DNA from: Butyrivibrio sp.
Lineage (GTDB): Bacteria > Bacillota_A > Clostridia > Lachnospirales > Lachnospiraceae
Direction: 5' to 3'
DNA length: 10,497 nucleotides
Assembly: GCF_024699075.1 (NCBI RefSeq)
Contig: NZ_JAILQF010000376.1
Span: forward strand, 1 to 10,497
The notes below the pieces were generated by a model. That model made no database searches, had not been told where the DNA came from, and was given only the letters and a program-made list of their open reading frames with translations. Position 1 is the stretch's first letter. The number at the start of each line of letters is the position of its first letter. The translations under genes and the position numbers were made by a program. Positions 1-8,821 of this stretch are shown here, piece by piece.

Positions 1-552
1 ATAGCCGTGATAATATAATCCGGTATTTTTGTTCTGAAGATATTTGATATGCCAATAGTACTGATTAAGTGCATCAGCTATAAGCTCTTCATCCTGTTCA
101 TGTACACCAACTCTTAAAAGGAAGAAGGCTGCCATGAAAAGTGTATCTGCCCAGCACTGTTCCGGGAAATCATTATTAGCTGATACTGTATGCTGAAGTA
201 CATTATCTCCAAATCTAAGAGCATCATTTCTAAGGTAATCAACCTTACTCATTACTATGTCCCAGTACTTCTGGTCTTTAGTAGCATCATATAAAGTAAT
301 AAGACAATGTCCCATTGCACAGGTATTAACTGTCCATACCTTAGGAAGGCCAAGCTCATCAACGTATTCATCGATTCTTGCCTTAAGTACATCAAGATAT
401 TCCTTCTTCTTGGTCACTTCATACGCTTTGGCTATACCATAATATGCAACTCCGCATGGCCAGTCCCATGTAAGATCCATATTCATTGTCTTATCAACTA
501 TATGATCAATAGTCTCTTCGATTACCTTTGTGTCAAAATCAAGTGATGTCAT
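1..552 (-). CDS. Unsaturated glucuronyl/galacturonyl hydrolase, GH105/GH88 type (5' part, runs off window)
   Basis: An open frame of 184 codons runs leftward from the ATG at 552-550 to base 1 without a stop, so the C-terminal part lies outside the window. AGGAG at 557-561 sits 4 nt before the start. The product resembles the (alpha/alpha)6-barrel hydrolases of GH105/GH88 that remove the 4,5-unsaturated uronic acid left by polysaccharide lyases, hydrating the double bond rather than cleaving as a normal glycosidase. Visible hallmarks are WDWPCGVAYYG (residues 29-39), VWTVNTCAMGH (72-82) and EQCWADTLFMAAFFL (131-145); Asp136 in the last is the likely catalytic acid by family analogy. There is no signal peptide, so it should act in the cytoplasm on imported oligosaccharides, which fits the adjacent transporter on the same strand. 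A hairpin lies between them, so it may have its own promoter or be reached by read-through. Substrate (rhamnogalacturonan versus glycosaminoglycan disaccharide) cannot be told from this fragment. Confidence 0.85.
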   Translation of the reverse strand, partial: MTSLDFDTKVIEETIDHIVDKTMNMDLTWDWPCGVAYYGIAKAYEVTKKKEYLDVLKARIDEYVDELGLPKVWTVNTCAMGHCLITLYDATKDQKYWDIVMSKVDYLRNDALRFGDNVLQHTVSANNDFPEQCWADTLFMAAFFLLRVGVHEQDEELIADALNQYYWHIKYLQNKNTGLYYHGY

Positions 553-773
553 ATATCTCCTCTCCGGCCTGTAACTGCCATATAACTGTATTTCTTAATC
601 TTTTAAACAATGACTATATATTCCTCTAAATAAAGATAATCCTCATTTAAAAGATAAAGAAAAGCCTGTTTATTTTATTAGTACCACTTTTAATATACAT
701 ATTTATATTTTTGATATTTTTTATTGCTTTTAAAAAATCTGTCGATCCGCATCTCGTTTCTCTTTTCAAAGAA

Positions 774-808
774 ATCCCCGGGCTGCTCCACTGAGCTTGC
801 TCGGGGAT
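774..808 (-). terminator. Terminator-like hairpin after the transport operon
   Basis: Read on the minus strand, arms beginning ATCCCCG and ending CGGGGAT close a stem that continues, with a small bulge, into a GCTC/GAGC inner helix and a 4-nt loop. A T-rich run (TTTCTTT) follows on the minus strand. It lies about 75 nt past the stop of the binding-protein gene, so it plausibly ends or attenuates the operon before the downstream hydrolase gene. Confidence 0.6.
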
Positions 809-824
809 CGCTTTTAAAAAATTA

Positions 825-837
825 TGTGATTGTCACA
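825..837. repeat. 13-bp inverted repeat TGTGA-TTG-TCACA
   Basis: Perfect 5-bp arms with a 3-bp spacer, 45 bp past the binding-protein stop codon. It resembles a compressed CRP half-site pair, but the spacer is 3 rather than 6 bp and the site lies between genes rather than at a recognised promoter. Function unknown; chance is possible in AT-rich DNA. Confidence 0.3.
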
Positions 838-882
838 AAGATGGAACCTGTCACCTTTTCAGGGGTAATCTGAACAGATGAA

Positions 883-2649
883 TTATTTCATCTTGGAGGT
901 CAGACCATTATTGTATGCTTCGCCTCTCTCATCGATGATTGCCTGATATCCGGCATCAAGGTACTCCTGCTTGTACTGCTCATAAAGTGTATCGAACTCT
1001 TCGTCAGATGCAACTACAAGCTTTGAAGCATATTCTTCGTAAAGACCAAGGAGTGTCTCCTGGTTGTCTGTTACAGATGTAAGAGTTACAGCGAAGTTAC
1101 AGTCAGGCTGGATTACACCGCTATCAACCATTGATTCCATACCATTGTAGTTATCAAGGATTTGCTGATACCAAGCATCTGAATCAGGATAGTTAACAGG
1201 CATGTTGAGCTTGATGTCATCTTCGATTGAACCAAGTGTCTTAGACTCAACAGCTACACACCAGTAATCCTTGTTGTTGTTAGCCATTGCGTATTCGCCT
1301 TCTGTGTTGTTTGTGATTACAGGGTATCCGTTCTCGTCATACTCGAATGTCTCGCCTTCGATACCATACTGCATTGTGAAGAGTGCGCTTGTTCCGTCAA
1401 CTTCACCTGCAAGCATCCATTCCATGTACATCATAGCTGCTGTGATCTGATCTTCAGAAGCAAGTGCTGAGAAGCCGATCATCATACCAAAGTTGTTGTT
1501 AGGACGATATGCATTTGTTGTTGAGATTCCGTCAGCGCCTGTATCTTCTACAAGACCCGGGCAAACAGCGATTGAAAGGTGTGCATCAGGATTTGTCTCA
1601 TAGAAAGAATCAAGAACTGCGATTGAAGGAGCGATGTAAGCTGAATATGTGAAAGCGTTACCTGCGATGAAATCAGCTTCGCCATCAGCTGCTTCTCTCT
1701 GTGTGAAATCAGGATTGAAATATCCAAGGTTGTAAAGCTGATTTCTTCTGTAAAGAAGGTTCTTCTGAGCTTCTGTTGAAAGAGCAGGTATAGCATAGTC
1801 ACCTGTTGTAGCCCACTCATACTCATCCTGAGGATTTGATCTGTAGCCATAGTTCTGGTCTACGCCAGCGCCTGAGATCTTTGTTCCGCCTGCAGGATAT
1901 TCTGCAAGTCCAGCTTCCTTGATTGCTGCGTATACTTCAAGTGTTTCTTCCCATGTCTGAGGATACTCAAGTCCAAGCTGATCAAGCCAGTCCTGACGAT
2001 AGAATGTTACATAGTTGTATGTGTTCTGTGAATAAGGTCTTTCTGCAAGAGCAAAGTATGTTGTGTCATTAAGATCTGTATAGTCAAGGTTGCCCTGCTC
2101 TTCCATCATTGCATAGTATGTAGGAGCTACGCTCTTAAGCTTCTCAAGGTCAAGTTCCTGAAGATATCCATCATCAGCCCACTGTGCCTGCTTAGGGAAG
2201 TCATACTCCATAAGGATTGTAGGAAGGTCCTGAGCATTTGCAAGGTTTGCATATGCATTAAGAACGTCTCCACGAGGAATTGCTACGAACTCAACTGTGA
2301 TATTGTACTTATCACCAAAATTAGTCTGTACCCACTGTGTCCAGTAGTTGTTAGTAACATCAACTTCTCCACCACGATCATATACAGGAATCTGAAGTGT
2401 TACATTGTCTGCAAATGGCTGCCAGCTGTCAATGCCTGAACCCTCAGCTGATGCCTCAGCATCTCCTGACTCTGTTGTTGCAGCAGCTTCTGATGTAGTT
2501 TCCTGGCTTGTTTCGTTTGTGCTGTCTGTCTGCTCTGTCTGATCTGCTGCTGTCTCGTTAGTAGAACCTGAGCAACCTGCAAGTGCGCCCATTACCATTG
2601 CGCTACTCATAGCAAGTGCAAAGCTTCTCCTTAACATGTTCTTTTTCAT
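883..2649 (-). CDS. Lipoprotein carbohydrate-binding protein of an ABC importer (solute-binding family 1, LplA-like)
   Basis: The 588-residue product starts with a lipoprotein signal: basic MKKNMLRR, a hydrophobic stretch, and lipobox LAGC with Cys26 as the expected lipidated residue. Residues about 27-70 form a Ser/Thr/Glu/Ala-rich acidic linker, typical of Gram-positive lipoproteins. The remainder (about 75-588) resembles the large binding proteins that partner LplB/YtcP-type permeases and capture oligosaccharides outside the membrane. At 588 residues it is longer than the usual 400-450 of simple sugar-binding proteins, as is common for this subgroup. GGAGG lies 7 nt upstream of the ATG. 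It is the third gene of the operon, 27 bp after permease 2. Codon use looks strongly biased, consistent with high expression of the binding component (by eye only). Ligand is inferred from the adjacent unsaturated-uronide hydrolase: probably an unsaturated uronic-acid-ended oligosaccharide. Confidence 0.9.
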   Translation of the reverse strand: MKKNMLRRSFALAMSSAMVMGALAGCSGSTNETAADQTEQTDSTNETSQETTSEAAATTESGDAEASAEGSGIDSWQPFADNVTLQIPVYDRGGEVDVTNNYWTQWVQTNFGDKYNITVEFVAIPRGDVLNAYANLANAQDLPTILMEYDFPKQAQWADDGYLQELDLEKLKSVAPTYYAMMEEQGNLDYTDLNDTTYFALAERPYSQNTYNYVTFYRQDWLDQLGLEYPQTWEETLEVYAAIKEAGLAEYPAGGTKISGAGVDQNYGYRSNPQDEYEWATTGDYAIPALSTEAQKNLLYRRNQLYNLGYFNPDFTQREAADGEADFIAGNAFTYSAYIAPSIAVLDSFYETNPDAHLSIAVCPGLVEDTGADGISTTNAYRPNNNFGMMIGFSALASEDQITAAMMYMEWMLAGEVDGTSALFTMQYGIEGETFEYDENGYPVITNNTEGEYAMANNNKDYWCVAVESKTLGSIEDDIKLNMPVNYPDSDAWYQQILDNYNGMESMVDSGVIQPDCNFAVTLTSVTDNQETLLGLYEEYASKLVVASDEEFDTLYEQYKQEYLDAGYQAIIDERGEAYNNGLTSKMK

Positions 2650-2676
2650 ATAAAATCCTCCTTTTATATTGTTTTA

Positions 2677-3633
2677 TTAACCTTTAACCGCACCTACCAT
2701 TGTGCCCTTTACGAAATATTTCTGTACGAAAGGATAAATGATTATGATCGGTATTGTTACAAACATTACTGATGCTGCCTGAAGTACTTCAGGTGTTGAT
2801 GTTACATTTGTAGCCTCTGTAAGCGCTGTTGAAGCTGCTTCCTGAGCATTTAAGATCATTTCGTAGAGCTTGTACTGTGCCATCTTAAGGTCATTGCTTC
2901 TTATATAGTACATATTGTCGCCGTACGCATTCCAACGACCTACTGCATAAAAAAGTGTAAGTGTTGCAAGGATAGGCTTTGAAAGTGGAAGCACTATTTT
3001 AAACAGTATCTGGAAATTTGAAGCTCCATCAAGGAAGGCTGATTCCTCAAGCTCATCCGGGATATTTGATAAAAAGTAGTTCTTCATGATAAGCATGTTA
3101 TAGGCTGAATAGATAAGTGGCCATATAAGAACCCACATTGTATCAAGAAGATGGAGATCACTATACAAAAGGTATGTAGGAAGATTACCTGCACTAAAGT
3201 ACATAGGGATCATAAGAAGGAATGTGATCACTGCTCTTCCTTTAAGTCTCTTTCTTGAGAGCGGATATGCTGCGCAGGTACATACGATCATACCAAGTAT
3301 TGTGAAGATCACTGTTACCTCTACGCTGTATATCATTGAGTGTGTCATACTACCATCTTCTACGATGGATCTGTATGCATCCCAGGTTACATCAATCGGC
3401 CACAGATATACTGACTTTGCTGCAACTGCGGCATTTGATGAAATTGATTTAACTGCAACATGCCAGAATGGAAGAAGACATGTTAAGGATAAAATACCAA
3501 TTACAAGTACTATTACAACATCGCTTACGTGAAGTTTACTTATCGCTCTGCTTCCGCCTGCGGATATGTCATTTTCTTTATCACTTCTCTTTTTAGCCAT
3601 TATCTTGCCTCCCTTAAAAACTGCTGTATCCAT
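2677..3633 (-). CDS. Carbohydrate ABC transporter permease, YtcP/LplC type (MalG-like)
   Basis: A 318-residue integral membrane protein with about six hydrophobic segments, the first at about 37-57. The EAA cytoplasmic loop that docks the ATPase is clear: EESAFLDGA and the following FKIVLP (about 196-216). The C-terminus KYFVKGTMVGAVKG is the hallmark ending of this permease subfamily. It would pair with permease 1 to form the channel. No ATPase gene is present; related Firmicute systems use a shared MsmX-type ATPase encoded elsewhere. The start is uncertain. ATG 3633 has AGGAGG (3640-3645) 6 nt upstream, 12 bp after the preceding stop. ATG 3600 has GGGAGG (3608-3613) 7 nt upstream and would give 307 residues starting MAKKRSD. 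A TTG at 3639 directly abuts the first ribosome-binding site and is unlikely. Confidence 0.9.
   Translation of the reverse strand: MDTAVFKGGKIMAKKRSDKENDISAGGSRAISKLHVSDVVIVLVIGILSLTCLLPFWHVAVKSISSNAAVAAKSVYLWPIDVTWDAYRSIVEDGSMTHSMIYSVEVTVIFTILGMIVCTCAAYPLSRKRLKGRAVITFLLMIPMYFSAGNLPTYLLYSDLHLLDTMWVLIWPLIYSAYNMLIMKNYFLSNIPDELEESAFLDGASNFQILFKIVLPLSKPILATLTLFYAVGRWNAYGDNMYYIRSNDLKMAQYKLYEMILNAQEAASTALTEATNVTSTPEVLQAASVMFVTIPIIIIYPFVQKYFVKGTMVGAVKG
3608..3613 (-). promoter_or_regulatory. Second strong ribosome-binding site inside the permease 2 gene start region
   Basis: GGGAGG on the minus strand, 7 nt before ATG 3600. It lies in frame, inside the region translated from ATG 3633, which has its own AGGAGG. 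The two in-frame starts differ by 11 residues; both could be used, or the downstream one could be the true start. Confidence 0.5.
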
Positions 3634-3645
3634 ATTCAACCTCCT

Positions 3646-4611
3646 TTATAGCAGTCCTGTTTCGCCAAGAGCTTTTGCAACTCTGTCAGCGATCAGTACC
3701 AAGATAAGACCGACAAGTGACTGGAACAGGTTAGCTGCTGTACCTATTGAATAGTGCTGACCGGAAAAACCGTAATCATATATGTATACAGCGAGCTGAT
3801 ACTGGAAATCTCTTACAAGAGCATTATCAAGAGCTACAAGTCTTTCAAGATTGGATCCCATAAGTCGTCCAAGATTCATAATAAGAAGTGTTACGATTGT
3901 AGGACGAATTCCAGGAAGTGTTATGTGCCATATTCTCTGCCAACGGCTTGCGCCATCGATCATTGCTGCTTCATAAAGGTCACCGCTTATACCGGTTATT
4001 GCTGCAAGGTAGAGGATTGATCCCCATCCCATTCCCTGCCATACACCAATGAGCAGATATGTTGCAGCCCAGTGGAATTTTTCTGTAAGAAAAGGAATTC
4101 CCTGATCGATCCATCCAAGACTTGAAAGAGTCATATTGATAAGACCGGTATTTGTACGGAACATTGTAAGAGCGATTGATCCGATAACTGCCCATGAAAG
4201 GAAGTGTGGCAGATATAAAACTGTCTGTGTTACTTTCTTGTACTTTGGAAATCTGAGCTCATTGAGCATTACTGCCAAAATGATAGGCATCGGAAAACCA
4301 AGAGCAAGATCAAGTAAGTTAAATACTATTGAGTTTCTCAGAGCCATGAAGAAACGGGCACTTGAAGTTCCCGTAAACAGATCTACGAAATTCTTCATTC
4401 CAACCCAATCACTTCCGCTGTAGCCTTTCATAACTTTGTAGTTCATGAAGACCATCCTGAGTCCCGGATAAGCTGCGTAGTTGAAAAGAACAACCATTGC
4501 AAGCGGGAATAAAAGAAGCAGATACAACTGCCAGTCTCTTTTAAATGCTTTCTTCCAGCTTGTCTTAACCTGCGGCTTAACATTCGAAACCGCATCATTA
4601 CCTTTACCCAT
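3646..4611 (-). CDS. Carbohydrate ABC transporter permease, LplB/YteP type (MalF-like)
   Basis: The 321-residue product starts at the ATG 4611-4609, chosen because GGAGGAGG (4619-4626) lies 7 nt upstream; longer in-frame versions reaching 4716 would run back through this site and into the predicted promoter leader. A basic N-terminal tail (about 1-27) leads into membrane segment 1 (about 28-48), with roughly five more segments. The EAA loop is LYEAAMIDGASRWQRIW followed by ITLP (about 212-233), including the invariant Gly, which contacts the shared ATPase. It is the first gene of the leftward transport operon and its stop overlaps the ribosome-binding region of permease 2, so the two are probably translationally coupled. 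With permease 2 it forms the membrane channel of a sugar importer. Family assignment is firm; substrate is inferred from the neighbouring GH105/GH88 hydrolase and AraC regulator. Confidence 0.92.
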   Translation of the reverse strand: MGKGNDAVSNVKPQVKTSWKKAFKRDWQLYLLLLFPLAMVVLFNYAAYPGLRMVFMNYKVMKGYSGSDWVGMKNFVDLFTGTSSARFFMALRNSIVFNLLDLALGFPMPIILAVMLNELRFPKYKKVTQTVLYLPHFLSWAVIGSIALTMFRTNTGLINMTLSSLGWIDQGIPFLTEKFHWAATYLLIGVWQGMGWGSILYLAAITGISGDLYEAAMIDGASRWQRIWHITLPGIRPTIVTLLIMNLGRLMGSNLERLVALDNALVRDFQYQLAVYIYDYGFSGQHYSIGTAANLFQSLVGLILVLIADRVAKALGETGLL

Positions 4612-4690
4612 GTAAAAACCTCCTCCAAGCTTTACTTCTGTCAAAATTACTTTTGTATTATTTAAATAATTCCTAATGTTTAGAGATATC

Positions 4691-4706
4691 CAGCAGGAAC
4701 CTGCTG
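4691..4706. promoter_or_regulatory. Perfect 16-bp palindrome over the predicted transcription start (putative operator)
   Basis: CAGCAGGAACCTGCTG has 7-bp perfect arms around an AA centre (TT on the other strand). It begins 1 bp downstream of the candidate -10 box of the transport operon, so a transcript starting about 7 nt after that box would begin inside it. It may be a repressor operator or the 5' stem of the mRNA. It is GC-rich against very AT-rich surroundings, which makes chance less likely. Confidence 0.55.
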
Positions 4707-4707
4707 A

Positions 4708-4735
4708 ATTACACATAACCCTCTTACATTTTCAA
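4708..4735 (-). promoter_or_regulatory. Candidate sigma-A promoter of the transport operon
   Basis: On the minus strand, TTGAAA (4735-4730, 5 of 6 matches to TTGACA), a 16-bp spacer, and TGTAAT (4713-4708, 5 of 6 matches to TATAAT). Predicted start is near 4701, giving a leader of about 90 nt before permease 1. This is the best pair I found upstream of the operon. Confidence 0.5.
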
Positions 4736-4786
4736 TTGTATGGTTATATGGGCATTTATTCACTTCATTTCATCTATAAAAACTGT

Positions 4787-4888
4787 GCATTTTCGACCAT
4801 GTTAAAAACAAAATCACCATCTATTGTCTATTTTTTACTAATTGTGTTGGTCATTTTTGTTAAAAATCATGGTTTTTAGTCTATTTTT
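4787..4888. repeat. Related AT-rich repeats, possible regulator-binding sites
   Basis: GTTAAAAA occurs at 4801-4808 and 4859-4866, each followed 20-25 bp later by GTCTATTTTT (4826-4835 and 4879-4888), giving a degenerate direct repeat about 53-58 bp apart. In addition, the minus-strand copy around 4796-4815 and the plus-strand stretch around 4853-4876 share TTTTGTT followed by CATGGT, an inverted relation. AraC-family proteins often bind such repeats upstream of the -35 box; the site is 50-150 bp upstream of the transport promoter candidate. Function is inferred from position only. Confidence 0.35.
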
Positions 4889-4955
4889 AATTTAATATAC
4901 AATAAATTAATTTGATTTTCGTTTATTTTTTCGGTCAGAAATGCATTATTAAATC

Positions 4956-4985
4956 TTTACTTTGATTTCCGTCATATTATATACT
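4956..4985 (+). promoter_or_regulatory. Candidate promoter of the AraC-type regulator
   Basis: TTTACT (4956-4961), an 18-bp spacer, and TATACT (4980-4985, 5 of 6 matches to the -10 consensus). The predicted start near 4992 leaves a short leader before GGAGG (5003-5007) and the ATG at 5019. Confidence 0.45.
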
Positions 4986-5018
4986 TGATATTGAATTCAG
5001 ACGGAGGTTTTTGACATT

Positions 5019-5978
5019 ATGCCCAAATCAAAGCAACAGACAATAGAATTCAGAAGCTACGATCTGCCGGAATACTTCCCTGTACTGCTTCTATCTGGAG
5101 ATCAATGGAGAATTTCAGACATTCCTTCAGGTACTCTTCACTTCCATAATTGCCTTGAAATAGGCTTATGCGAGACCGAAAGCGGAACCATGGAGTTCAT
5201 GGGCGACAAGCAGCCCTTCCATGCAGGAGATATCACTATTGTAGCCAACAATATATCTCATACAACATACTCAGACCCGGGGTGCGCCAGTAAGTGGTCT
5301 TATATATTTGTAGATATTCAGTCGCTTCTCGAACCTCTGTTTCCATTAAGTGCTTTGGAACACTCAGCTGAACTTACCAAAATGCTCCATAACTACTACG
5401 GCATATTGCCAAGAGATGAATATCCTGATATCTACAACCTTGTTACTGCTGCAATCTGTGAACTAAGAAGAAAGGGAAGCAACTATGAGTTCTCTGTAAG
5501 AGGCCTTATGATGGCCCTGATAGTAAAGCTCTTCCCTATATATAAGAAGCTTGAGCTTAATGCAAGTGCACATCCTCATGAGAATGCGCTTGTAATAGCC
5601 CCTGCCATAGACTATATACAGGACCATTATATGGAAGATTTTGTAATGGAAGATCTTGCTGCTATGTGTTCTTTGTCACCGACTCATTTCAGACGCCTGT
5701 TTACAGCAATTGTAGGAGACGGACCACTTAGATATCTCAACCACATAAGAGTACAAAAGGCATCTGTACTTCTGCGCACAACTGAAATGCCCATCTTAAA
5801 CATTTCAGACGAAGTAGGTTTTCATTCATTATCAAGTTTTAATCGTCATTTCCTAGAAGATTTTGGTGAAGCGCCAAGAGACTGGCGTAAGAAAGTAGTA
5901 GCTACTCAGAGCCGTTCAATAATGAAATTTGCCGGCTGGATGGTACCACCATCCGTACGCCAGGGCGTAAGAACATAA
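5019..5978 (+). CDS. AraC-family transcriptional regulator with cupin-like sensor domain
   Basis: The 319-residue protein has an N-terminal cupin-type sensor: HFHNCLEIGLCETESG (41-56), then FHAGDITIVANNISH (67-81), the usual metal/sugar-pocket pattern of AraC_binding domains. A helical linker (about 110-190) leads to a C-terminal double helix-turn-helix (about 195-292). Its first helix pair is around MEDLAAMCSLSPTHFRRLF and its second around ILNISDEVGFHSLSSFNRHF, ending in the family signature FGEAPRDWR. A 27-residue tail of unknown role follows. GGAGG (5003-5007) lies 11 nt before the ATG. The gene is divergent from the transport operon and separated from it by a repeat-rich control region, so it is probably the local activator responding to the imported oligosaccharide. 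AraC-type family is certain; target and ligand are inferred from position. Confidence 0.93.
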   Translation: MPKSKQQTIEFRSYDLPEYFPVLLLSGDQWRISDIPSGTLHFHNCLEIGLCETESGTMEFMGDKQPFHAGDITIVANNISHTTYSDPGCASKWSYIFVDIQSLLEPLFPLSALEHSAELTKMLHNYYGILPRDEYPDIYNLVTAAICELRRKGSNYEFSVRGLMMALIVKLFPIYKKLELNASAHPHENALVIAPAIDYIQDHYMEDFVMEDLAAMCSLSPTHFRRLFTAIVGDGPLRYLNHIRVQKASVLLRTTEMPILNISDEVGFHSLSSFNRHFLEDFGEAPRDWRKKVVATQSRSIMKFAGWMVPPSVRQGVRT

Positions 5979-6151: not shown

Positions 6152-7348
6152 TTACTTTACTTCTTCCGGTCTTATATATGGTTTTATAACAGGAGCATGA
6201 CTCATAGGGCCATCCTTTGGAGCTATATATTCTTTATCCTTAATAAGAGCATTGCAGAAATCTATAAGCCTTTGTGCTGCAACATTACTGTTCCATTGTC
6301 TTTTAATAGTATCATAAGCATTATTTCCAAATTTCTGCTGCTTTGACGGATGCTTTACAAGATCTTCAACCTTATCAAGAAAACTTTGAAGATTTTCTCC
6401 ATCAAATATATAGCCATTTTCTCCGTCTTGTATCAGGTACGGGACAGCTCCAGCCATTGAACCTGCAACAACAGCGCAGCCTGAATTCATAGCCTCATTA
6501 ACAACCGCCCCCCAGCCTTCAAGATTATTGCTGGTAAAAAGGTATATATGAGCTTCTTCCATCATCTGCCTGACTCTTTCAGGCACAAGAAAACCGTGGA
6601 AAGTCACTACATCTGTAAGTCTGTTCTCATCAACGTAGTACCTTAAATCATCATTCATCTCCCCATCACCTACAATATCCAGGTGAAAAGAATAATTCTT
6701 TTCCTTAAGATATGCTGCAAGCTGAAGAGCAAATTCAGGATGCTTGACTCCGTCCATAAACCTTCCTGCCCACAGGATCCTTGGAGTCTTATTGTCCTCC
6801 ATCCTCTTCATGCTTCTCATCTGCTCAGAAGTATATTCCCTGTATTCCGGAAAATATCCCCATCTGAACATCTTGTGAGGATATGCACCTATAAGCGCGA
6901 AGTCAGAAGCTACATACGCACCGTTACAAAGCATATAGACCTTTTTATTTCTGAATTTTATATGCTCTTTGTATTTGGCTATAAGGCCCTTTGGAGATAC
7001 TGCTTTCCACTGTCCTTCGCGATATATCCTTTCGCTCATCCTAAGAAGAGGCTTGCCTGCCTGAGCCCTCATAAGACACGCATTTAATACATCTTCATTT
7101 TCTGTCCATCCAAGAAGCACTATATCAAAATCATTAATTGCATTTAATGTGTCAATCTTATCATTGTCATATATCTTTACATAAGGAAGTTTATATATAT
7201 CAACGCCCCAGCCCATACGAACTCTTTCCTCTTCCATAGGCTGTGTCTGAACAAATATAAAATTCTCATCACCGATTATCCTCATAATAGCTTCACAAAG
7301 AGGAATCTGGTGATGATTAATATAATTCGATATAAATAAAAATCTCAT
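6152..7348 (-). CDS. Glycosyltransferase, GT4 family (GT-B fold)
   Basis: The 398-residue product has the two Rossmann-like halves of a GT-B retaining glycosyltransferase. The N-terminal acceptor half begins MRFLFISNYINHHQIPLCEA. The C-terminal nucleotide-sugar half carries ILWAGRFMDGVKHPEFAL (191-208), LDIVGDGE (223-230), VTFHGFL (248-254), and the GT4 motif EGWGAVVNE (277-285), in which Glu277 and Glu285 form the E-x7-E pair that binds the sugar donor. It should act in the cytoplasm, transferring a hexose or similar sugar from a nucleotide donor to a glycan or lipid acceptor; neither is identifiable. Start: ATG 7348 with GGGAG 11 nt upstream; an in-frame TTG at 7366 would precede that site. 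The proline-rich tail (about 375-398) is not part of the core fold. It has no glycan-biosynthesis neighbours here, so it looks solitary. It converges on the AraC gene. Confidence 0.9.
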   Translation of the reverse strand: MRFLFISNYINHHQIPLCEAIMRIIGDENFIFVQTQPMEEERVRMGWGVDIYKLPYVKIYDNDKIDTLNAINDFDIVLLGWTENEDVLNACLMRAQAGKPLLRMSERIYREGQWKAVSPKGLIAKYKEHIKFRNKKVYMLCNGAYVASDFALIGAYPHKMFRWGYFPEYREYTSEQMRSMKRMEDNKTPRILWAGRFMDGVKHPEFALQLAAYLKEKNYSFHLDIVGDGEMNDDLRYYVDENRLTDVVTFHGFLVPERVRQMMEEAHIYLFTSNNLEGWGAVVNEAMNSGCAVVAGSMAGAVPYLIQDGENGYIFDGENLQSFLDKVEDLVKHPSKQQKFGNNAYDTIKRQWNSNVAAQRLIDFCNALIKDKEYIAPKDGPMSHAPVIKPYIRPEEVK

Positions 7349-7488
7349 TACAGGATCATCTCCCAACCAGTATTATGGCAATGCTTATATAACCGCCCTC
7401 ATCTACATAAACGTGGCTCAAATTCATGATCACTAAAACGCATATACCATTTATATTGTATCACACTCGCCAAATATCATATTAATTC
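7349..7488. other. Upstream region of the glycosyltransferase gene
   Basis: Noncoding, AT-rich DNA between the GT4 start and the large inverted repeat. GGGAG (7360-7364) is the probable ribosome-binding site of the glycosyltransferase. I could not find a -35/-10 pair of acceptable quality on the minus strand, although AT-rich TACAAT and TATAAA hexamers occur around 7455-7465. Confidence 0.45.
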
Positions 7489-7784
7489 ATCTAAACTTCG
7501 CATTTAAAATATCACTTCATTTTGTGGGATAAGACTATATGAACAGCCTATAAAGGATTTTCGCGTTCTTTAAAAATGTTTCTAATTCAAGAGCTTAATA
7601 GATGGAGTTTTATATTCTTCTTGGGGGCCGCATGTCTGAGCGAAGCGAGTTTCGGCCCCCGGAATATAAAATTCCAGATATTAAGCCTTGAATTATAACA
7701 TTTTTAAGACAAGAAAATCCTTTATAGGCTGCTCATATAGTCATCCCCACAGGCATTACTTATATTTTAATGCGAAGTTTAGAT
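7489..7784. repeat. ~296-bp imperfect inverted repeat (MITE-like element or long RNA hairpin)
   Basis: Left arm 7489-7630 and right arm 7653-7784 are reverse complements over nearly their whole length, with about 110 matching positions in my hand alignment of arms of 142 and 132 nt. The perfect blocks include the 16-bp termini ATCTAAACTTCGCATT, the 19-bp block CAGCCTATAAAGGATTTTC, AAAAATGTT, TAATTCAAG, GCTTAATA, TTTTATATTC and GGGGGCCG. A 22-nt loop (7631-7652) is left at the centre. No coding frame is supported inside. Candidates are a nonautonomous mobile element with long terminal repeats, a structured RNA, or an inverted duplication. I see no clear target-site duplication. The right terminus overlaps the last two codons of the CobW-family gene (ATC TAA). 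Confidence 0.85.
7623..7660. repeat. GC-rich tip hairpin of the large inverted repeat
   Basis: GGGGGCCG (7623-7630) and CGGCCCCC (7653-7660) pair perfectly around a 22-nt loop containing GAGCGAAGCGAG, which can fold further. Neither side is followed by a T tract, so it is not a classical rho-independent terminator despite its GC-rich stem. It is the apex of the larger inverted repeat. Confidence 0.75.
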
Positions 7785-8783
7785 CAGTTCATTAAAGTCC
7801 GCTGTCGGAAAATACTTACTGATCATATCTGTATTTAATTTTTCGCCAATGACTATGATTACTTCCTGGGCGCCTCTTACATGGTTATAGGTAACTTTCT
7901 GCCTTGTTGCATTTATTTCGGTATATCCTTCAGATTCAGCTCCTTTATCCGATTCATCACCAATTTTGGCAAAACCTTTTATACGTATTATATGGCCGCA
8001 CTCAGGATCTTCTATCGCCTTGCTGATATTTTCTATAAGCTCGTCTTTTTTAAGCTTAACTCCAAAAAGGTACAAGGATTTATAGCCTTTATCATCTGAA
8101 AGCTGCCTTTTTTCATAATCACCATGTACAAATCCTGCAGATGCTATCTTTTTAAAGTCTTCATCATTAAGCTCATCACTACCTTTATTTATAAAGAAGT
8201 TGTCAAAAGCTTCCTGAGACCTGAATATATCGGTTCTTCTTACTAAAATCCCCTCAAGAGCTTTTCTTATATGTTCTTTTACTTTGGTGACTCTTTCATC
8301 AGATACATCTTCTGTCTTTGACAAAACTACAATTCCCGCATCAGCTATTTCTGATGCGAGCACATAATCAGACTCTTTGGAAAGATTATCTTCAAGATCT
8401 GCTGATGCTATTGCTATAACGCTTCCTATCTCATACCAGTTATCAAGTGGGGATTCATAGAGGGTATCGAAGAACTCGTCCATATCAAATATTCCGGATG
8501 GCTCTATGATAACCCTTTGATAGCCGGACATTGCAAGGGTTATAAGCTTGGTCTTGAGTCTTCTTTGATGAGCAGTTTTGCCATCACCTCCAACTATCAT
8601 TTCAACTCCGCACAGATCACTTCTTATATCTTCAAGAAGCGCCACATCTATATTTACGGCACCATAATCATTTTCCAGAATACATACTTTTATTCCCTGG
8701 GAATTCAAGTACCTCACATATTTTTTTATAAATGTTGTCTTTCCGGATCCAAGAAATCCGGTTATAAGGTCAACTTTTATCAT
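7779..8783 (-). CDS. CobW/G3E-family P-loop GTPase, variant without the CxCC motif
   Basis: The 334-residue product has a G3E-type GTPase domain. Walker A is GFLGSGKT (9-16), the ExxG-like EPSG lies at 94-97, and a C-terminal CobW-like domain covers about 215-325, ending QEVIIVIGEKL. These proteins are metallochaperones or metal-insertion GTPases (cobalt, zinc, nickel, by subfamily) in the cytoplasm. The CxCC metal-binding motif that normally follows the first helices is absent: the equivalent stretch reads IVGGDGKTAHQRR (64-76). The guanine-specificity NKxD motif is replaced by SKTE (155-158). The start is ATG 8783, since AAGGTG (8790-8795) lies 6 nt upstream; the in-frame GTG at 8792 is part of that site. 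It follows the MATE gene by 38 bp with no terminator between, so they are probably co-transcribed. Its last codon and stop fall in the outer end of the large inverted repeat. Metal and partner are unknown. Confidence 0.88.
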   Translation of the reverse strand: MIKVDLITGFLGSGKTTFIKKYVRYLNSQGIKVCILENDYGAVNIDVALLEDIRSDLCGVEMIVGGDGKTAHQRRLKTKLITLAMSGYQRVIIEPSGIFDMDEFFDTLYESPLDNWYEIGSVIAIASADLEDNLSKESDYVLASEIADAGIVVLSKTEDVSDERVTKVKEHIRKALEGILVRRTDIFRSQEAFDNFFINKGSDELNDEDFKKIASAGFVHGDYEKRQLSDDKGYKSLYLFGVKLKKDELIENISKAIEDPECGHIIRIKGFAKIGDESDKGAESEGYTEINATRQKVTYNHVRGAQEVIIVIGEKLNTDMISKYFPTADFNELI

Positions 8784-8821
8784 TATATTCACCTTCTTAT
8801 CATAAGCTACGCCTGATTAGA

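Follow-up and report, generated by a model that had tools for sequence, protein, structure and literature searches.

What is the large inverted repeat that separates a CobW-family gene from a GT4 gene in this Butyrivibrio DNA, and why do its two arms still match one another? The original prediction, made for the 10,497-nucleotide stretch analysed here (the window), took the repeat at 7489-7784 to be a decayed MITE-like element, and named a long structured RNA or an attenuator of the upstream operon as alternatives. Our analysis indicates that it is very probably a non-autonomous, MITE-like mobile element with IS4-type ends, the arms of which are kept mainly by template correction and the core of which is kept by a separate constraint.

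The hairpin at the CobW stop codon and its empty site

The sequence does contain the inverted repeat, at a level far above chance. Its arms pair end to end, and its outermost 16 bp can be read from the sequence as an exact match, as had been claimed. When folded from 7480 to 7795, the region yields -151.8 kcal/mol on the plus strand and -149.7 kcal/mol on the minus strand, and none of 100 dinucleotide shuffles per strand, with a mean near -60, was as low (z about -19). A strand-neutral alignment of one arm against the other gave 118 complementary columns out of 140 aligned, with 10 gap positions; because of such indels, repeat searches return the arms as four blocks. The window had no Rfam family at gathering score, and a search of a phage collection gave no match.

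The two flanking genes lie on the minus strand and, named as in the original prediction, are GT4 (6152-7366) and CobW (7779-8792). Further away, positions 1-5978 appear to hold a sugar ABC transporter, with a binding protein (883-2649) and two permeases (2677-3639 and 3646-4716), together with a divergent AraC-like regulator ORF (5019-5978), all named by eye. An uncultured Butyrivibrio locus (L001), whose CobW is 82% identical to that of the window, has the same GT4-CobW order, with 38 bases between its two matching stretches. When the flanks of the window were joined without the element, they aligned through the junction to this locus, where a single ATTAATTCAG is found. This empty site, together with the terminus that relatives have in common, defines the element as positions 7491-7782, a total of 292 bp, with a 10-bp duplication. 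The left copy of the duplication, ATTAATTCAT (7481-7490), matches the right copy at 8 of 10 positions and the single copy of L001 at 9 of 10, and the right copy, ATCAGTTCAT (7783-7792), was placed by comparing the flank with the same empty site; the two copies in the window therefore now differ at two sites.

The plus strand of the element is here the strand whose tip sequence is GAGCGAAGCGAG. Its left terminus, CTAAACTTCGCATTTAAAAT (7491-7510, plus strand), is common to the dispersed copies described below and resembles the ends of IS4-type elements. The right terminus (7763-7782, minus strand) is an inverted copy of the left. CobW takes its stop codon from it, TAA (7779-7781), where L001 has TGA. 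No ORF within the 292 bp reaches 80 aa. The earlier placement of the repeat between the two genes needs one correction, in that CobW extends into the element. The empty site that the mobile-element reading predicted in a relative was found at L001, the one locus tested, although strictly a precise loss there, rather than a site that was never occupied, could also account for it. In the reading that we prefer, insertion took place between CobW and GT4, right at the stop codon of CobW, and duplicated 10 bp of target, as the empty site and the duplication show.

The syntenic CobW-GT4 spacer in another relative, G009 (L171:2820-2970), contains another inverted repeat, identified by eye, which is not a hairpin of this element's family. 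There, a solo element terminus abuts the CobW stop in the opposite orientation, so that the history of this spot is not simple, and an older insertion at the CobW stop of G009 is possible. The conserved syntenic copy expected if the repeat encoded an RNA is therefore absent at the locus in both syntenic relatives. The same comparison bears on the idea that the repeat terminates or attenuates transcription of the CobW-GT4 unit, a role to which the position of the element between two codirectional genes lends itself. However, the site is empty in L001, a different sequence occupies it in G009, no terminator-like site was found in the window and copies are dispersed elsewhere, leaving an attenuator of the upstream operon very improbable.

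Dispersed copies and the probable source of their mobility

Dispersed copies with common ends, the pattern expected of a mobile element, were found in the relatives G001, G008 and G009; all copy counts refer to relatives rather than to the host genome. Used as a DNA query, the window repeat matched at least 14 distinct places in G001, four places on plasmid pNP243 of B. fibrisolvens D1, and many places in G008 and G009 (40 candidates were scored in each, out of 146 and 123, respectively). One G008 contig has the plasmid's matches at identical coordinates, from which we take G008 to be D1. With a model of the inner core (R1), at least 45 copies were detected in each of G008 and G009, as all 45 scored candidates matched; one G009 pair of identical elements appears to stem from a circular contig whose two ends overlap. 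The DNA search of 79 genomes of the genus gave matches in five, of which G001, G008 and G009 were multi-copy, while G021 and G042 held short pieces only.

Intact copies in these relatives have the terminus CTNAAACTTCGCA in common. The terminus pattern AAACTTCGCACNT occurs 57 times in G009, 19 times in G008 and 9 times in G001, and its reversed control 0 times. Most paired ends lie 290-297 bp apart; others are 58-177 bp apart, which implies that shortened, end-only derivatives exist, and in G008 and G001 the ends of many older copies are gone on one side or both. The retrieved G009 loci contain 37 elements that still have both ends. Target duplications of at least 7 bp flank 13 of these, compared with 1.0 on average and never more than 5 when the right flanks were shuffled 1000 times; the remaining 24 have no duplication of that length. 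Of 40 copies placed in the window and G009, 37 lie between ORFs; at the hairpin itself two share sequence with ORFs of about 285 bp, and one (L204) overlaps a 927-bp ORF. Their orientation relative to neighbouring genes, scored for 37 copies, was codirectional antisense in 15, codirectional sense in 11, convergent in eight and divergent in three, and in 23 of the 37 the 3' end of the right-hand gene faces the element, as that of CobW does.

Several related arrangements were seen alongside these copies. Elements of 290-292 bp with the same inner core (L170:2995-3285, L176:10933-11222 and L199:1790-2081) end in CACTTGGACG or CACTTGGATG rather than CACTTGCC, with AAACTTCCCAC in two of them and AAACTTCGCAC in L170. 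A second small dispersed repeat, which contains GACATAGAAGTTCATCC and a second hairpin, ACTACGTCCTGTAGT, sits at the same apical-loop spot in L084, L085, L100 and L150; it also lies in an arm of L096 and L141, and has two further copies elsewhere in L138 and L150. Two wide terminus pairs, of 2387 bp in L171 and 1024 bp in L184, were considered and set aside, as they enclose other genes with ORFs that do not read as transposase-like.

Autonomous elements with matching ends are present elsewhere in the genus. AAACTTCSCACTTG was found in seven of the 79 genomes, and forms inverted pairs spanning 1633 bp in G024 (four copies) and G077 (one copy). These pairs enclose a 475-aa transposase that scores 569.5 bits against NCBIfam NF049925 (IS4 family, cut-off 250) and matches Pfam DDE_5 and DDE_Tnp_1. 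The IS4-type insertion sequences of other Butyrivibrio thus end in CTNAAACTTC[C/G]CA, the same as the element. Relatives of this transposase with 45-47% identity lie in G018 and G059 within elements ending in CTTAAACTTCGCA/CTGAAACTTCGCA and CTAAAACTTCCCA, and two further relatives in G071 had no such ends in the flanks examined. The G059 insertion sequence has TTATTTA on both sides and four G018 copies have TTAATAA on both sides, though contigs break there; the G077 insertion sequence has no target duplication, and those of G024 have flanks at contig ends, outside the scoring. The elements of the NF049925 (transpos_IS4_4) group are therefore like the window element in their termini and, in G059 and G018, in their AT-rich target duplications of about 7 bp, but are about 1.6 kb long with a transposase of about 475 aa, whereas this element has no gene.

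A search for the IS4-type transposase in G001, G008 and G009 gave no match. Other transposase families were covered through DDE_Tnp_1, in G008 and G009, where none of the 20 loci scanned for an autonomous partner was bracketed by the termini. Since the three copy-rich genomes yielded no such transposase, we can only infer mobilisation in trans; nevertheless, judging from the ends, the element was most likely moved in this way by an IS4-type transposase, and it is possible that the partner has been lost or has diverged.

Bacterial MITEs derived from insertion sequences, such as Correia elements, are short, non-coding, intergenic and present in many copies, with terminal inverted repeats and target duplications. 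The element is alike in these traits, having shared terminal inverted repeats, target duplications, no coding capacity, an empty site and ends like those of an autonomous relative. It differs in that it is wholly one near-perfect hairpin with a conserved irregular core, in that its stems differ among copies yet remain self-complementary, and in that its copy-rich genomes yielded no partner transposase. ERIC and other long palindromic intergenic repeats are likewise dispersed, intergenic, long imperfect palindromes. Compared with ERIC in these general traits, rather than by sequence, the element differs in its IS4-type ends, its 7-10-bp duplications and its length, which is about twice as great.

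Complementary arms and the changes that may keep them so

Inside its ends the element is one long hairpin with a conserved inner core (7583-7702, plus strand, model R1). In an alignment of 58 cores (A1), 98.0% of cells pair, compared with 87.6% after shuffling, and 31 of 44 pairs have undergone double changes; none of 500 shuffles reached any of five measures, and structures slid along the same cores paired at most 46.5% of cells. The core also has fixed irregularities. An A at 7592 (plus strand), in TTCAAGAGC opposite GCCTTGAA (7685-7692), is invariant in A1 and bulges out unpaired in both the fold and the consensus, and the apical motif TGTCTGAGCGAAGCGAGTTT (7633-7652, plus strand) is common to the window sequence, the copies and A1. 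A G.A/A.G mismatch at 7601-7602 (plus strand), opposite 7677-7678, was kept in 52 of 71 copies, converted to the right arm in seven, converted to the left arm in two and otherwise altered in ten.

This pairing is what would be expected if a structured RNA were the point of the element, with the plus strand transcribed, the core selected as RNA, the pairing restored by compensatory selection and the mobile ends serving only to spread it. The covariation fits that account, as do the bulge and loop, which are conserved in the 58 copies and which other Butyrivibrio keep on different stems at 18 of 19 loci. However, the strong covariation of the core is not decisive for RNA, because correction between the arms of the DNA would leave an identical signature. 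Changes were counted along a minimum spanning tree joining 71 copies. Double changes of the transversion type were as frequent as those of the transition type (416 and 393), which speaks against the RNA account. Single changes led between a Watson-Crick pair and G.U in 265 cases, A.C in 223 and another mismatch in 474. The excess of G.U over A.C was marked in the inner half of the element (93 to 37; by column, 20 to 8), in favour of an RNA, but the outer half was unbiased (172 to 186) and its columns pointed in the reverse direction (17 to 35). A simple count over 73 copies, which ignores kinship, gave 199 to 147. The balance of G.U and A.C is thus inconsistent as an RNA signal, which appears in the inner half and is absent from the outer. 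Against the RNA account there are also the inconsistent gene orientations given above, promoter-like sites in the window at the shuffled level, the failure to find any terminator-like site there, and the lack of an Rfam match both for the window and for the hairpins of the 18 tip-motif loci described below. Of the RNA alternative, strong covariation of the inner core stands, and conservation of the site in the two syntenic relatives and a consistent G.U/A.C signal do not; on balance we consider it unlikely that RNA is the purpose of the element.

Both-arm changes were already abundant in young copies. Young copies were defined as a single-linkage cluster at 7% difference, which comprised 12 copies after one duplicate was dropped. 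They carry 33 single changes and 11 both-arm changes, the latter in seven copies and all in the outer half, and ten of these 11 are still Watson-Crick, compared with 0.165 expected by coincidence. A second cluster of five copies gave four distinct double changes among 18 distinct changes. Exchange with another subfamily, which was considered as a source, would need to transfer both arms and the intervening stretch, and the isolated changes do not suggest that. We read the both-arm changes of young copies as a better fit to template correction from arm to arm than to RNA selection, and the G.A/A.G mismatch, which has been resolved towards either arm, agrees with this. On this reading, hairpin-templated DNA synthesis (template switching) would transfer a change from one arm to the other, and such transfer would be the main reason why the arms stay complementary. 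Conserved mismatches and the bulge should be erased by such correction and are not, so selection acts too; the irregularities of the core, namely the bulged A and the apical TGTYTGA/GAGTTT loop, would be kept by a separate constraint. The original reading of a decayed MITE-like element consequently holds for the MITE, given the copies, ends, empty site, duplications and matching insertion sequence ends, but "decayed" does not fit, because the arms change together, also in young copies.

Template switching has been described as both maker and keeper of hairpins in PMC8794818, and the homogenisation of inverted-repeat arms in yeast is reported in PMC8604942. The changes reported here resemble those in the former in that a single event altered the two strands of a stem and existing stems were repaired; they differ in that the histories reconstructed there were of RNA genes, whereas here a dispersed repeat has many young sister copies in one genome.

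The inner core and its tip beyond the element

Of the 79 genomes of the genus, 13 match the core model when as many as 45 candidates per genome are scored. We read 19 core loci of other Butyrivibrio (from G011, G012, G028, G044, G055, G069 and G074), and found that their stems differ and that none has the AAACTTCGC end within about 90 bases of the core. The TTCA[A/T]GA[G/A] arm with its bulged A is kept in 18 of the 19 (the exception being L353), as is the TGTYTGA...GAGTTT loop (the exception being L354), which in most of these loci is closed by a longer mini-hairpin such as CCCATTTATGGG. We model the tip as a mini-hairpin that may contain G.A pairs, and one copy, L134, has a matching double change within it.

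The tip motif recurs still more widely: among 397 genomes of the family, five (one of them G001) carry a long apical pattern, and 21 of 391 genomes of the class have a shorter version. As the motif reads nearly the same backwards, a reversed pattern is not a valid control for it. Of 33 tip-motif loci that were folded (among them L317 and L332, from the window element's own family, and L329, which repeats L309), 29 enclose the motif in 28 pairs or more; the others are L311, L322, L323 and L330, the last two of which look truncated. The same folding was also applied to eight more loci. When 18 tip-motif loci were compared with Rfam, none of the hairpins matched, and the three matches obtained, a T-box and two TwoAYGGAY elements, all lay beside the hairpins. 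Searches of the literature for the tip motif surfaced only plant and human cell line papers, and no title dealt with this repeat in the literature searched, outside of which lie most subscription journals.

Long-hairpin families with the same tip were also seen in other Clostridia (L307-L310, L327, L328 and L335; L306, L312-L314 and L331), with their own outer inverted repeats, of the GAAGAAAAATAT...ATATTTTTCTTC type, at the points where homology between copies stops. These families may be separate dispersed palindromes. In other Butyrivibrio, at L347:1160-1700, L339, L341, L345 and L350, two oppositely oriented core hairpins lie near each other, with about 0.4 to 1.2 kb between them.

Could the hairpin core itself be the mobile or spreading unit, recognised through its folded tip, with the IS4-type ends a later packaging in B. 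fibrisolvens-like species? Core hairpins that have no AAACTTCGC end in the 19 stretches read, a tip motif that sits on unrelated stems and is multi-copy in G796 and G653, ends that also occur without the core, and the second small repeat at the same tip position in four copies, as if the tip were exposed, are all in keeping with this. Against it, none of the ORFs listed at the paired hairpins of L339, L345 and L347 reads by eye as a transposase, and L346 and L349 look like one locus common to two species, so that some copies are stable. We regard such an origin as doubtful, though a little less so than a purpose in RNA. We are somewhat more inclined, though still tentatively, to see the inner core as an undescribed nucleic-acid module, the folded plus strand of which, as single-stranded DNA or RNA, would be recognised by a common factor, and which was packaged within IS4-type ends in B. 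fibrisolvens-like species while its stems drifted via arm correction. The module would then be a long hairpin whose irregularities are fixed, namely the apical TGTYTGA-[mini-hairpin]-GAGTTT loop and the bulged A, with the tip recurring on unrelated stems across Clostridia.

With dozens of sister palindromes in one genome, the contributions of selection and template switching to the upkeep of a hairpin become directly testable, and in young copies paired both-arm changes are about 60 times above coincidence. Strong covariation in a repeat is thus, alone, no proof of a functional RNA. At the same time, the tip motif common to unrelated long hairpins points to an unrecognised factor in Clostridia.
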